Assembly: GCA_950097145.1 (NCBI GenBank)
Contig: CATNCF010000005.1
Span: 62,001 to 126,000 of the forward strand
DNA from: an uncultured Lachnospiraceae bacterium
GTDB lineage: Bacteria; Bacillota; Clostridia; Lachnospirales; Lachnospiraceae
Reading direction: 5' to 3'
DNA: 64,000 bases
Under the pieces are notes generated by a model. It ran no database searches, was not told where the DNA came from, and saw only the letters and a list, made by a program, of their open reading frames with translations. This document shows, one piece after another, positions 12,123 through 16,568 of the stretch (positions are counted from its first letter, which is position 1; each line of letters starts with the position of its first letter). The translations under genes were made by a program, and so were the position numbers.

Positions 12123-12427
12123 TACCCAATTTACTCCTTTCACTGTTATAATGTGTTATAAAGTTTTATCTTCTTTTGCTAAATGGTACAATATAAAATC
12201 CTTCCCCATGGAAAGAATTTAAAATCACTATTTTGTACATTAATATGAAGAAATAAGGAATTAGCTTCCAGACATAATTATACTATATTTGCAAAATTAT
12301 TCAATAAAAAAATAGGAATTTTGTCACAATTTTCATGATAATAAAAATTTTCCTTTCCAAATCTTGTGTGAATTGTTATAATATAACGACAGGGAGCAGA
12401 AATTTACAGACATCACAGGAGGAACAT
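12123..12427. other. A+T-rich divergent intergenic region
   Basis: About 305 nt between the divergent chemoreceptor and GH13 genes. It has many A and T runs. A good extended -10 promoter for the GH13 gene is visible (separate entry). On the minus strand several weak -10-like boxes exist but none is convincing, and no sigma-D type GCCGATAT box was seen. No ORF with a ribosome site lies here. Confidence 0.6.
12354..12382 (+). promoter_or_regulatory. Promoter of the GH13-like operon
   Basis: TTTCCA (12354-12359), 17-nt spacer, and TATAAT (12377-12382) preceded by TGT, an extended -10. The start codon of the GH13 gene lies about 45 nt further on. Confidence 0.6.
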
Positions 12428-14377
12428 ATGAATTTTCAAATCTGTACCGGAATACAAGATAAGCCAGGCGTAACTAAACAGGAAGATACAATTCTTTTTT
12501 CTAGTCAGGCACCAGAACGTGCCGACTGTAATTTATTATTGTATCCAAAAAATAATGGAACGGTTCTGAAAATTCCTATGAAAGCACAAGAAAGTCGGAA
12601 AACTTTATATACTGTGGGAATACAGGGGCTGGATTGGGAGAACTATGATTATAATTTTGAGATAAATGGACTGGAAACAGTGGATTCGTGTGCAAAGAGA
12701 ATTACTGGACGTGAAATCTGGGGGGATCAGAAACGCAAGCCGTCAGTGGAGAAGGCAGAAGCTTTTGTACCGCATTGGGAACAAAAGCAGCAGGAGACAG
12801 GGGCAAAGGGGACTGAAATTCAGAAACGGCATCATAAGGCAAAAAATGAGGAACAAGTTAAAATAAAAGGTTCCTTTTATTTTTCTGATTTTAATTGGAG
12901 AAAGGATAAAAATCCAGGAATATCAAAAGAAGATATGGTAATGTACAAACTGCATGTCCGGGGCTTTTCCATGGGTATGCGGAAAAATAATAAGAAACGC
13001 GGGACTGTGGGCGCCCTCAATAGAAAACTGGATGCGTTAAAAGATATGGGTATTACCACGATACTGTTTATGCCAGTATATGAGTTCGAGGAGTTTCTAT
13101 TATTGGATGAGAGTAAGCAGGAGCAGAATCCTCAGAATATCATTAATTACTGGGGCTATACAGTGGGAAGTTATTTTGCCCCTAAGGCGTCTTTTCTGTC
13201 AGAAAATGATCCAGATGAATTAAAATACTTGATTTACAAAATGCATGAGAAGCAGATGGAGTGTATCCTGGAATTTTATTTTCCGCAAAATTTAAATCTT
13301 CTTTCTATGGTTGATATTCTTCATTACTGGCGCAGGGAATATCATGTGGATGGGTTTCGCATTATTGGAAACTCTGCAGGGGCGTCATTGGTGGCGGGAG
13401 ATGGGATTTTGTCGGGCTGTAAATTATTTTTTGATGGGTTTTCAGAGGAACTGGCACAGGATCCACAGAGGTTTGGTCCGGAATTATACGCATATAATGA
13501 AGAATTTCTTTATGGGGTGCGCAAGATACTCAATCATCACAGCGGCAGTATTTACGAATTTGCGTGCCAGATGCGCAGACAGCAGTCTCATCAGGGATTT
13601 GTGAATTATATAGCGGAAAATAATGGTTTTACCCTCTGGGATGTTTTTTCTTATGATCAGAAGCATAACGAATTAAACGGAGAAGGAAACAGGGATGGGA
13701 ATTACTGGAATTTCAGCAGTAATTGCGGCCAGGAAGGGTTCAGCAGGAAGCGTTCAGTGTTGGAACTGCGTAAACGCCAGTTAAGAAATGCCCTTGCAGT
13801 ATTGTTCTTTGCCCAGGGGGTTCCCATGCTCTGGATGGGGGATGAGTCTGGAAACTCCCAAAACGGAAATAACAATGCCTATTGCCAAGATAACGAGATT
13901 GGCTGGAAGGACTGGAAAAACAGCGGATTCTGCCGCAGTATGATAAATTATATCCGTGCCCTTGCAGAACTTAGGACAAGGTATAAGATGCTGCGGAGCC
14001 CGGATCCCTATCGGCTGATGGATTACAAAAATTCAGGAAGTCCAGATCTTTCTTATCATAGCGACAATGGATGGAAAATAGATTTTAATATGAACAGGGG
14101 ATTTATTGGGATGTTCTATTCTGGCGCATATGCAGGAACAATCGAAAATATTTATATTGCCTATAATTTTCAATATCATTCCCAGAAATTTGCGCTGCCA
14201 GGGGGTATGGAATGGAAACTTCTGCTAAATACCGCCAGAGAAGATGCTGTCTTGGAAGAACCTGAACGTCTGGGGGCGATCCGGGAGATTCAGGTGGAAG
14301 ACCATGCAGTCTGCCTATTAGAAGGAAAACCTGCCCGGGTTCGGAAAAAACGTGAAAGAAGCAGGAGGAAAGAATGA
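12428..14377 (+). CDS. Glycoside hydrolase family 13 protein (pullulanase/GlgX-like), probably catalytically inactive
   Basis: 649 residues from the ATG at 12428, which has the ribosome site AGGAGGA six bases upstream. An N-terminal beta-rich segment (~1-170) precedes a GH13 barrel recognisable from YKLHVRGFS, YWGYTVGSYFAP, VDGFR, NGFTLWDVFSYDQKHNE and GVPMLWMGDE, resembling debranching enzymes. The three catalytic acids look substituted. The nucleophile position after DGFR-I is Ile313 rather than Asp. The acid/base position in KLFFDGF is Asp336 rather than Glu. The usual HDGF transition-state pair reads NNGF (Asn398-Asn399). The frame is intact, so this is not a decayed gene; a binding or regulatory role is inferred. 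Overlaps the next gene by 4 nt. Confidence 0.85.
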   Translation: MNFQICTGIQDKPGVTKQEDTILFSSQAPERADCNLLLYPKNNGTVLKIPMKAQESRKTLYTVGIQGLDWENYDYNFEINGLETVDSCAKRITGREIWGDQKRKPSVEKAEAFVPHWEQKQQETGAKGTEIQKRHHKAKNEEQVKIKGSFYFSDFNWRKDKNPGISKEDMVMYKLHVRGFSMGMRKNNKKRGTVGALNRKLDALKDMGITTILFMPVYEFEEFLLLDESKQEQNPQNIINYWGYTVGSYFAPKASFLSENDPDELKYLIYKMHEKQMECILEFYFPQNLNLLSMVDILHYWRREYHVDGFRIIGNSAGASLVAGDGILSGCKLFFDGFSEELAQDPQRFGPELYAYNEEFLYGVRKILNHHSGSIYEFACQMRRQQSHQGFVNYIAENNGFTLWDVFSYDQKHNELNGEGNRDGNYWNFSSNCGQEGFSRKRSVLELRKRQLRNALAVLFFAQGVPMLWMGDESGNSQNGNNNAYCQDNEIGWKDWKNSGFCRSMINYIRALAELRTRYKMLRSPDPYRLMDYKNSGSPDLSYHSDNGWKIDFNMNRGFIGMFYSGAYAGTIENIYIAYNFQYHSQKFALPGGMEWKLLLNTAREDAVLEEPERLGAIREIQVEDHAVCLLEGKPARVRKKRERSRRKE

Positions 14378-15036
14378 CAGACAAAAAATTAGGGTTAAAT
14401 GGCTGTGCTTTAAAATGTATTGCTATGAGTTCTATGCTGATTGATCATATTGGAGCGGTCCTTTATCCGCAATATATTGTATTGCGGATGATTGGACGCC
14501 TTGCGTTTCCGATATATTGTTTTCTGCTGGTGGAAGGCGCTATGCATACAAGAGATATTCATAAATATGAGATTCGGCTGCTGATATTTGCAGTGATTTC
14601 AGAAGTTCCTTTTGATCTTGCTTTTTATGGCAGAATTTGGTGGGAGAACCAGAATGTATTCTTTACCTTGTTTCTTGGCATCCTTGCAATAGATTTGCTG
14701 AGGAATAGTGCACATAAGTTAAATGTGATTTTAATTCTTGTATTAATGATTATTGCGGCCGAAATTATGCATACAGATTATGGAGGAGCGGGAATTATAT
14801 TTATTGTGTGCTATTATCTCTTGTACCAGAAAAAAATAATGAAACAGATTATGTTTTTGGCGGAGAATCTTGTTCTTTATGGAGTTGGAGTGCAGACATA
14901 TGCTTCTTTTGCAGCGCTGCCCATGCTGTTGTATAATGGCAGGAAGGGGCCGTCCCTGAAATATTTTTTCTATATTTTTTATCCAGTTCATTTATTAATC
15001 TTATATTTAATTATCCGGATAAAGTATGGGAGATAA
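14374..15036 (+). CDS. TraX family membrane protein
   Basis: 220-residue polytopic membrane protein with about seven hydrophobic segments. The N-terminus (LNGCALKCIAMSSMLIDHIG) and the RLAFPIYCFLLVEGAMHTRD segment match the TraX family, named after the F-pilin acetylase. In Firmicutes these chromosomal proteins are presumed acyltransferases of unknown substrate. Starts inside the stop of the GH13 gene (ATGA), so the two are translationally coupled. The link with a carbohydrate-like protein suggests envelope glycan acylation, but that is inference. Confidence 0.85.
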   Translation: MTDKKLGLNGCALKCIAMSSMLIDHIGAVLYPQYIVLRMIGRLAFPIYCFLLVEGAMHTRDIHKYEIRLLIFAVISEVPFDLAFYGRIWWENQNVFFTLFLGILAIDLLRNSAHKLNVILILVLMIIAAEIMHTDYGGAGIIFIVCYYLLYQKKIMKQIMFLAENLVLYGVGVQTYASFAALPMLLYNGRKGPSLKYFFYIFYPVHLLILYLIIRIKYGR

Positions 15037-15057: not shown

Positions 15058-15618
15058 ATGAAAGCTTGGCAACATTTTAAAACAATTAATCATCATAAAA
15101 TGCTGGTGATGAAAGGGTGTTTTCGTGTGGGGCTTTATAAACAGGGGCTTCTGCATGACCTGTCAAAATATACACCGACAGAGTTTCTGGTGGGCTGCAG
15201 ATATTTTCAGGGAAATTTAAGTCCAAATAATGTGGAGAGAAAGGAAAAAGGTTATTCTTCAGCATGGCTGCATCATAAGGGCAGGAATAAGCATCATTTA
15301 GAATATTGGATTGATTATGGTGTGGAGAAAAAAGGAATTACTGGTATGAAAATGCCTCTGAACTACGTGGTAGAAATGTTTATTGACCGTATGTCAGCGT
15401 CTAAGAATTATCAAAAAGAAAAATATACGGACCACAGTGCCCTGGATTACTACGAAAATGGCAAGGAATATCATATCCTGCATGAGGAAACCAGAGCGCT
15501 GTTGGAAAAATTGCTTCACATGCTGGCAGAACAGGGAGAAGACGCAACGTTTCAGTATATCAGACATGTTCTGCTGAAGCAGAAAGATTATGGGACGCCT
15601 TACCGCCCTCAGTCTTGA
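15058..15618 (+). CDS. DUF5662 family protein
   Basis: 186-residue soluble, His-rich protein beginning MKAWQHFKTINHHKMLVMKG. Motifs LLHDLSKYTPTEF and AWLHHKGRNKHHLEYW suggest a metal-binding HD-like helical fold. It matches the family described as DUF5662, common in gut Clostridia; the function is unknown. It follows the TraX-like gene by 21 nt with GAGAGGTGAG as ribosome site. Its 3' end overlaps the convergent DUF4250 gene by 10 nt. Confidence 0.8.
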   Translation: MKAWQHFKTINHHKMLVMKGCFRVGLYKQGLLHDLSKYTPTEFLVGCRYFQGNLSPNNVERKEKGYSSAWLHHKGRNKHHLEYWIDYGVEKKGITGMKMPLNYVVEMFIDRMSASKNYQKEKYTDHSALDYYENGKEYHILHEETRALLEKLLHMLAEQGEDATFQYIRHVLLKQKDYGTPYRPQS

Positions 15619-15941: not shown

Positions 15942-16568
15942 TTGAAAACTTTTTTAATGCCGCTGAAGGAAGAGGAAGAAAAATATTATCTGGAAAAAAT
16001 GAGAGAGGGCAGCCTTGAAGCTAAACATACATTAATTGAGCGTAATTTGAGACTGGTAGCGCATATCTCCAGGAAGTACCAGAATGGTGAGGAAGATATG
16101 GAAGATTTGATTTCTATTGGAACCATAGGGCTTATCAAAGCAATTTCCACCTTTAATTATGAGAGGGGAAACCGTCTTGCTACCTATGCGGCCCGGTGTA
16201 TTGACAATGAACTTCTCATGTATTTCAGAGGCAAGAAAAAAACTTCCCGGGAAGTATCCCTGTATGAGCCTATTGGAACAGACAAAGAAGGCAACCAGAT
16301 CAGCCTTATGGATGTAGTAGAAAGCACAGAACGTGATATTTTTGATATTATAGAGCTTAAGGGCAACAGCCGGAAGGTTTATGAGATGATTCCCAAAGTA
16401 TTGAACAAAAGAGAACGGGAAATTATCCAGTGGAGATATGGATTATATAATCAAATTCCAGTAACTCAGAGGGAGATAGCGGATAAGCTGGGAATTTCCC
16501 GTTCCTATGTAAGCAGGATTGAAAAAAGGGCGCTGGAGAAATTAAAAAGCTGTTTTGAGACAGCCTGA
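15942..16568 (+). CDS. sigK: RNA polymerase sporulation sigma factor, SigK-like
   Basis: 208-residue sigma-70 family protein. Region 2 reads LIERNLRLVAHISRKYQNGEED and DLISIGTIGLIKAI; region 4 ends with LGISRSYVSRIEKRALEKL. The segment EPIGTDKEGNQISLMDVV is characteristic of SigK, the late mother-cell factor, rather than SigE or SigG. Start is a TTG with GAGGTG 5 nt upstream; a later ATG at 15957 has no good site. The frame upstream meets a stop at 15909 with no start, so there is no membrane-inserting pro-sequence of ~20 residues like that of Bacillus. The gene is uninterrupted, with no skin-type element. Confidence 0.87.
   Translation: MKTFLMPLKEEEEKYYLEKMREGSLEAKHTLIERNLRLVAHISRKYQNGEEDMEDLISIGTIGLIKAISTFNYERGNRLATYAARCIDNELLMYFRGKKKTSREVSLYEPIGTDKEGNQISLMDVVESTERDIFDIIELKGNSRKVYEMIPKVLNKREREIIQWRYGLYNQIPVTQREIADKLGISRSYVSRIEKRALEKLKSCFETA

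Follow-up and report, generated by a model that had tools for sequence, protein, structure and literature searches.

The relevant literature on noncatalytic isoamylases concerns the plant ISA1/ISA2 system. In every plant ISA2 examined, at least four of the five conserved GH13 residues vary, the nucleophile among them, and the protein, inactive by itself, binds glucan and influences starch (PMC12510319, available portion); in rice, ISA2 raises the activity of ISA1 (PMC12892837, available portion). The "border lobe" of maize ISA1 carries R504, N561, W578, and N628, and mutants at these four positions are reported without detectable activity, with perhaps a trace for R504C (PMC12510319, same portion). 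Among bacterial enzymes, the GlgX of Streptomyces venezuelae, seen with acarbose, holds the sugars beyond −1 through Arg212, Glu470, Asn534, and Tyr536, with Trp222/Tyr224 as the −1 pair (PMC9530166, available portion). A review assigns two glgX homologues to Blautia obeum (PMC10395257, available portion). By title and the beginnings of abstracts, none of the papers listed in the literature searches, with subscription papers mostly outside their scope, describes a bacterial noncatalytic GlgX. Pseudo-isoamylases are thus familiar from plants, whereas a bacterial, family-wide one is, within the reach of these searches, undescribed.

Here we analyze a GlgX-like protein encoded in a 64,000-nucleotide stretch of DNA from an uncultured Lachnospiraceae bacterium (the whole stretch is called the window below). 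We ask how far its fold, catalytic site, and glucan contacts compare with those of the described systems, and how its distribution relates to that of true GlgX and of the glycogen genes.

An Intact Reading Frame for a GlgX-Type Protein

The reading frame is complete, comprising 649 codons plus a stop for a protein of 649 amino acids (Table 1), and the original prediction of an intact gene is borne out, with AGGAGG standing before the ATG. The further claim that the gene has its own promoter fared less well: One upstream match agrees with the sigma-70-like pattern at 10 of 12 positions and has TG ahead of the −10 element, but such matches are not overrepresented in the region (16 against 14.1 expected from shuffles), so the promoter is best called plausible. 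Among curated families, TIGR02100 (GlgX) matches the protein best, at 274 bits against a cutoff of 640.9; Pfam returns only a short Alpha-amylase match. The nearest named relatives are from Lachnospiraceae, for example Petralouisia muris at 66% identity. On these sequence comparisons, the protein is of the GlgX/isoamylase type (GH13_11).

The AF2 model, built from a 63-row alignment (pLDDT 88.8, pTM 0.88), predicts with high confidence an isoamylase fold composed of an N-terminal β domain, a barrel, and a C-terminal β domain. Foldseek TM scores for the model were 0.81 with S. venezuelae GlgX, 0.79 with rice ISA1, 0.76 with E. coli GlgX, and 0.72 with rice ISA2. The best solved chains for the 63-row profile were plant ISA1, archaeal TreX, Chlamydomonas ISA1, and bacterial GlgX, with plant ISA1 scoring 381–393 bits and plant ISA2 196–208 bits.

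Table 1. Features of the GlgX-like gene and of the two genes that follow it, in window coordinates
Feature	Position	Strand	Basis
Sigma-70-like promoter match, extended −10 (TTTCCA, 17 nt, TATAAT)	12354..12382	+	Suggestive only
Ribosome-binding site AGGAGG, 5′ of ATG at 12428	12417..12422	+	Read from sequence
GlgX/isoamylase-like protein, very likely noncatalytic	12428..14377	+	ORF, profile, tree, AF2, Foldseek
N-terminal β domain, residues 1–100	12428..12727	+	AF2 model, identity by stretch
Junction at the missing 44-residue GlgX active-site loop, residues 290–297	13295..13318	+	Alignment
Ile313 codon, position of the catalytic nucleophile Asp	13364..13366	+	Alignment
Asp336 codon, position of the acid/base Glu	13433..13435	+	Alignment
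Asn398–Asn399 codons, position of His-Asp	13619..13624	+	Alignment
Retained isoamylase lobe, residues 412–496	13661..13915	+	Alignment; meaning via PMC12510319 and PMC9530166 (available portions)
TraX-family membrane protein	14374..15036	+	PF05857, 5.8e-48
DUF5662 protein	15058..15618	+	Profile match, neighborhoods, AF2

Loss of the Catalytic Site across the Group

The alignment set 72 relatives, comprising 29 rows from the window's genus and 43 from other genera, against 33 true GlgX rows (32 from the family plus E. coli GlgX). One true row is repeated (32 of 33 distinct), and among the genus rows L160 repeats L010, leaving 71 of the 72 relatives distinct. The 43 nongenus rows lean toward P0001, because they were chosen mostly as its best matches, with about fifteen taken from lower in the list. 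The fragment L037 was left out, together with most of L039–L066, in whose place longer neighborhood loci carrying the same genes were used.

In this alignment, the nucleophile Asp336, the acid/base Glu371, and the His442–Asp443 pair of E. coli GlgX correspond to Ile313, Asp336, and Asn398–Asn399 of the window protein, so the three substitutions put forward in the original prediction are confirmed by comparison with E. coli GlgX and 32 Lachnospiraceae GlgX rows. Their conservation among orthologues, however, differs by position. The nucleophile Asp is present in 0 of 72 relatives vs. 33 of 33 true GlgX rows; its place is taken by Leu (24), Ile (19), Met (9), Val (7), Asn (7), Gln (2), and, once each, Lys, Ser, Gly, and Thr. 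Every genus row (29/29) has Asn-Asn in place of the His-Asp pair, which is mixed elsewhere, with Asp kept at 399 in 8 of 72 rows and His at 398 in 12; Trp at 338 is kept in 3. The acid/base position varies freely (Asp 22, Glu 20, Tyr 6, Gly 4, and eleven other residues among the 72): Asp336 is not a conserved substitution, the change from Glu looks like drift, and we dropped the reading of it as functional. A single row, L155, keeps Glu336 together with His-Asp at 398–399.

The damage is wider than these three substitutions. The loop at E. coli positions 270–313 has none of its 44 residues left in any of the 72 relatives and is full in all 33 true GlgX rows; the segment at E. coli 336–348 is reduced to one residue in 72 of 72; and neither residue of the region I Asn-His pair (E. 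coli 265–266) is found at its place in any of the 72 relatives. Counterparts of S. venezuelae His271, Asp342, Glu378, Trp380, His449, and Asp450 are lost in all or most rows. A shifted alignment that would restore intact acids was considered and rejected: The position five residues after the invariant Asp308 is never Asp in the relatives (0/72, against 33/33 in true GlgX), and an Asp one or two places further, present in 11 of 72 rows, is not conserved. The nucleophile is thus lost from every row, the other acids having decayed to differing degrees. With respect to GlgX membership, the isoamylase fold is found, the catalytic Asp-Glu-Asp is absent, and the TIGR02100 score lies under the cutoff. 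The window protein is very likely noncatalytic.

Conservation of the Isoamylase Lobe and of Outer Glucan Contacts

Within the group (44 rows), mean pairwise identity is 0.39 overall vs. 0.52–0.58 across residues 389–500 and 0.58 across residues 412–496, and among the stretches measured it is lowest in the N-terminal β domain. True GlgX (32 rows) shows 0.70–0.79 and 0.74 in the same two stretches, vs. 0.61 overall. The 63-row alignment shows no variation at N414, N417, D423, G424, G434, E436, G437, R448, D472, G480–N483, and D488; the lobe includes N414, N417, E419, D423, the GNNN at 480–483, Y485, and D488.

Three of the four outer-sugar contacts of S. venezuelae GlgX have conserved counterparts: E470, N534, and Y536 correspond to E419 (71/72), N483 (72/72), and Y485 (71/72), and no counterpart of the fourth, Arg212, was seen in the alignment. 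The −1 pair W222/Y224 corresponds to W242 (72/72) and Y244 (70/72). Position 419 is Trp in 27 of the 33 true GlgX rows, E. coli among the 33; Glu is therefore not needed there for glucan in the true enzymes of the family. For the plant lobe, rice ISA1 repeats the maize spacing (R493, N550, W567, N617), which fixes the counterparts as R365, N414, position 431, and N481. Maize R504, N561, and N628 accordingly map to residues kept in 70, 72, and 72 of 72 rows, respectively. At position 431, the counterpart of the glucan-touching Trp of maize ISA1 (W578), 24 of the 43 rows from other genera have Trp and none of the 29 genus rows does; since this surface-site Trp is not always kept, a simple account in terms of surface site 2 is weakened.

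Read from the alignment, the active site has decayed while the border lobe and three outer glucan contacts have stayed nearly invariant. The retained residues may have been kept for folding rather than for glucan. Separately, four residues conserved in the group (K253, 72/72; E282, 68/72; Q463, 71/72; D532, 71/72) are each shared by no more than 20% of the true GlgX rows and may mark a gained function.

Purifying Selection and Distribution in the Lachnospiraceae

The original prediction of a selected pseudoenzyme, perhaps a glycan-binding one, fits the presence of orthologues in every genus genome, the low dN/dS, the supported group that lacks the nucleophile, and the retained glucan-contact residues. 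The gene occurs in 29 of 29 genus genomes with no stop inside the match, at full or near full length in 28 and cut by a contig end in one. In the eight closest genus pairs, dN/dS is 0.066–0.144; dS was saturated in 14 of 21 comparisons with the window gene. A quick tree search on 68 of the 105 rows, with E. coli GlgX the sole row from outside the family, split 50 pseudo-form rows from 18 true rows by one branch (SH-aLRT 100). On this evidence, the gene is a paralogue of GlgX kept under purifying selection across much of the Lachnospiraceae.

A class-wide profile search of 291 genomes returned matches below 1e-190 only in the window's family, in eight of the ten family genomes listed. The seven other family members of this draw, chosen independently of P0001 similarity, have no nucleophile and retain 0, 0, 0, 0, 0, 4, and 0 of the 44 loop residues. 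The six best nonfamily matches (E 1e-83 to 1e-106), the ones read residue by residue, have the Asp, the Glu, the His-Asp pair, and the full loop; other nonfamily matches were 4e-27 or weaker.

By our own E-value cuts, with most genomes not read residue by residue, the pseudo-form is present in about 310 of 397 family genomes (1e-50 cut; 333 match P0001 at 1e-3) and true GlgX in 135 (TIGR02100, 1e-100 cut); both forms occur in 125 genomes, 185 have only the pseudo-form, 10 have only true GlgX, and 77 have neither. Best TIGR02100 E-values fall into two groups, at 1e-113 and below and at 1e-80 and above. All 63 members scanned match TIGR02100 at E < 1e-20 and none carries the nucleophile, so loose cutoffs would overstate debranching capacity.

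Gene Neighborhood

The coupling to a TraX-like acyltransferase in the original prediction holds within the genus, where the window's traX shares a 4-bp overlap with the stop of the GlgX-like gene and 21 of 21 loci show the order GlgX-like, TraX, DUF5662, but not across the family. Among 41 neighborhoods (two of them from the window's genus, counting the window itself; ORFs called mechanically), the gene that follows on the same strand is DUF5662 in 25 and TraX in 10, so TraX is not a general partner; one or the other follows in 35. DUF5662 lies at most three genes away in 30 of the 41 and is present in 329 of 397 family genomes, including some without the pseudo-form, such as G030, G049, and G053. 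Modeled with AF2 (pLDDT 80), DUF5662 is almost entirely helical, and a fold search with the model gave no significant match, the best being a small alarmone hydrolase at E 0.63. Its weak top fold matches include HD-type hydrolases, an idea that is a mere hint given the lack of a significant match; its HDxSK and HHxGRNxHH motifs are invariant in 30 of 30 aligned rows. No paper naming DUF5662 was found in the literature searched.

In 2 of 41 neighborhoods, a true GlgX gene sits no more than 2 kb from the pseudo-form. The remaining neighbors vary between loci and look like housekeeping genes, which from reading their sequences we take to be uvrD, gltX, trpS, yifB, dprA, and topA. Between DUF5662 and the presumed yifB of the window, positions 15942–16568 read like a small sigma-70-type sigma factor, with relatives of ~208 amino acids in 7 of 41 neighborhoods; the other three members of that sigma cluster, at ~373 amino acids, are probably RpoD. 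At L145:6407-8830 (+) (G047:C36), the GlgX-like sequence is fused in frame to an Ogt-like O6-methylguanine-DNA methyltransferase domain (808 amino acids), and G369, from the genus of G047, has an open frame of 835 amino acids at its match.

Glycogen Genes in Carrier Genomes

The window's genome, an assembly 83% complete, contains GlgA (two matches), GlgB, GlgC with an adjacent second GlgC-like gene, and two GlgP, and GDE_C had no match in it. None of the 29 genus genomes reaches the true-GlgX (TIGR02100) cutoff; the best match to that model is the gene for the pseudo-form in 28 and its contig-cut fragment in the other. Type I pullulanase was considered as the missing debrancher and set aside, being over the cutoff in only 4 of the 29, the window's genome not among them. 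Another GH13 protein of the window's genome best matches models for maltodextrin glucosidase, a GlgX/transferase fusion, and cyclomaltodextrinase, each under cutoff, and could act on small branched dextrins. Despite the GlgA, GlgB, GlgC, and GlgP genes, no dedicated debranching enzyme is recognizable in this genome.

Across the family, the pseudo-form is absent from 8 of 11 genomes lacking GlgA vs. 79 of 386 with GlgA (Fisher P = 4e-4), an association that is weak evidence because GlgA is nearly universal (386/397) and that is confounded by incompleteness, 7 of the 11 GlgA-less assemblies being <90% complete. The 79 GlgA-positive genomes without the pseudo-form indicate that glycogen does not require it.

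Discussion

The group resembles plant ISA2 in its isoamylase fold and as a long-conserved paralogue in which the nucleophile is lost. It differs in that ISA2 acts as part of a complex with the catalytic ISA1, whereas 185 of the 310 carriers here have no true GlgX by our cuts. The two also differ in the surfaces retained: Plant ISA2 keeps surface site 1 and is without the SBS2 sequence, whereas the bacterial group keeps lobe residues adjacent to SBS2, the Trp only in part. Given the much higher profile scores for plant ISA1 than for ISA2, a shared ISA2 lineage is unlikely, and the ISA2-like form probably arose separately. Bacterial and archaeal GlgX/TreX have the fold, the domain order, and the lobe in common with the group, along with several of the outer glucan contacts; the group departs from them in having no nucleophile, no conserved acid/base residue, no 44-residue loop, and a TIGR02100 score far below the family's cutoff. 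The resemblance to the c-di-GMP-activated GlgX of S. venezuelae (PMC9530166, available portion) likewise lies in the fold, but that enzyme is catalytic, and its c-di-GMP motif is found in 2 of 72 group rows.

We lean, with modest confidence, toward reading the window protein as a noncatalytic glucan-binding accessory of glycogen metabolism, kept by selection and working like plant ISA2. The retained lobe would bind the outer chains of the cell's glycogen without cutting them, and the protein would serve as a scaffold, chaperone, or local regulator for enzymes that build or trim glycogen: GlgA, GlgB, GlgP, and, where present, true GlgX. A strict ISA1/ISA2-type pairing with GlgX is not supported for the genus, in which no genome passes the GlgX cutoff, so the enzyme assisted there is probably not GlgX; such a pairing could hold in the 125 of 310 family carriers that do have true GlgX. 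As carriers are more often without a catalytic isoamylase than with one, the partner must often be another enzyme, for which GlgB and GlgP are the obvious candidates. A counterpoint to the accessory reading is that TraX and DUF5662, the next genes, have no known link to glycogen. A bolder form of the proposal, which we hold only tentatively and think somewhat doubtful, is that an ISA2 of their own evolved in these bacteria: a pseudo-isoamylase, found across the family in most of the Lachnospiraceae species sampled, that binds glycogen, governs glycogen architecture or access without a catalytic isoamylase partner, and is the sole GlgX-family protein in more than half of its carriers.

The emptied cleft might instead hold a metabolite or nucleotide, making the protein a regulator that signals to DUF5662 or TraX. 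This reading, which we consider unlikely, would account for the frequency with which one of those two genes comes next on the same strand (35/41 loci) and for group-specific conserved residues such as K253, E282, Q463, and D532, and it has a precedent in the Streptomyces true GlgX that is a c-di-GMP receptor (PMC9530166, available portion). It sits poorly with the retention of the outer glucan contacts and with the occurrence of DUF5662 in genomes without the pseudo-form, which indicates that DUF5662 is not a dedicated partner; a c-di-GMP receptor of the Streptomyces type is not supported, since the motif ExR(X)6R occurs within the first 110 residues in only 2 of 72 rows. Less probable again is that the protein assists the TraX-like membrane acyltransferase, either as its partner or as an adaptor for its substrate, in a task such as the modification of a surface alpha-glucan: The 4-bp overlap and the gene order kept in all 21 genus loci speak for it, whereas the 10 of 41 family loci with TraX next, and a window protein in which inspection by eye reveals neither a signal peptide nor a membrane segment, speak against it.

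That the protein remains an enzyme by virtue of an active site that is new or rearranged strikes us as highly improbable. The group-specific conserved polar residues would fit, as would row L155 with its Glu and His-Asp at 336, 398, and 399, but no conserved acid stands in for the nucleophile, variation is free at the Glu and Asp positions, and two active-site segments are deleted. A decaying pseudogene, which the lost catalytic residues alone might suggest, we reject as scarcely credible, given dN/dS of 0.066–0.144 and the absence of any stop inside the match in the 29 genus genomes, one of them contig-cut.

Lachnospiraceae are prominent in the gut, and inventories of glycogen genes are drawn from annotation, in which the pseudo-form would inflate GlgX counts at loose cutoffs. 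If the glucan-binding accessory reading is right and the protein binds glycogen, it would be a bacterial counterpart of plant ISA2, in organisms many of which are without a catalytic isoamylase, and the role of a dead isoamylase on its own would become directly testable.
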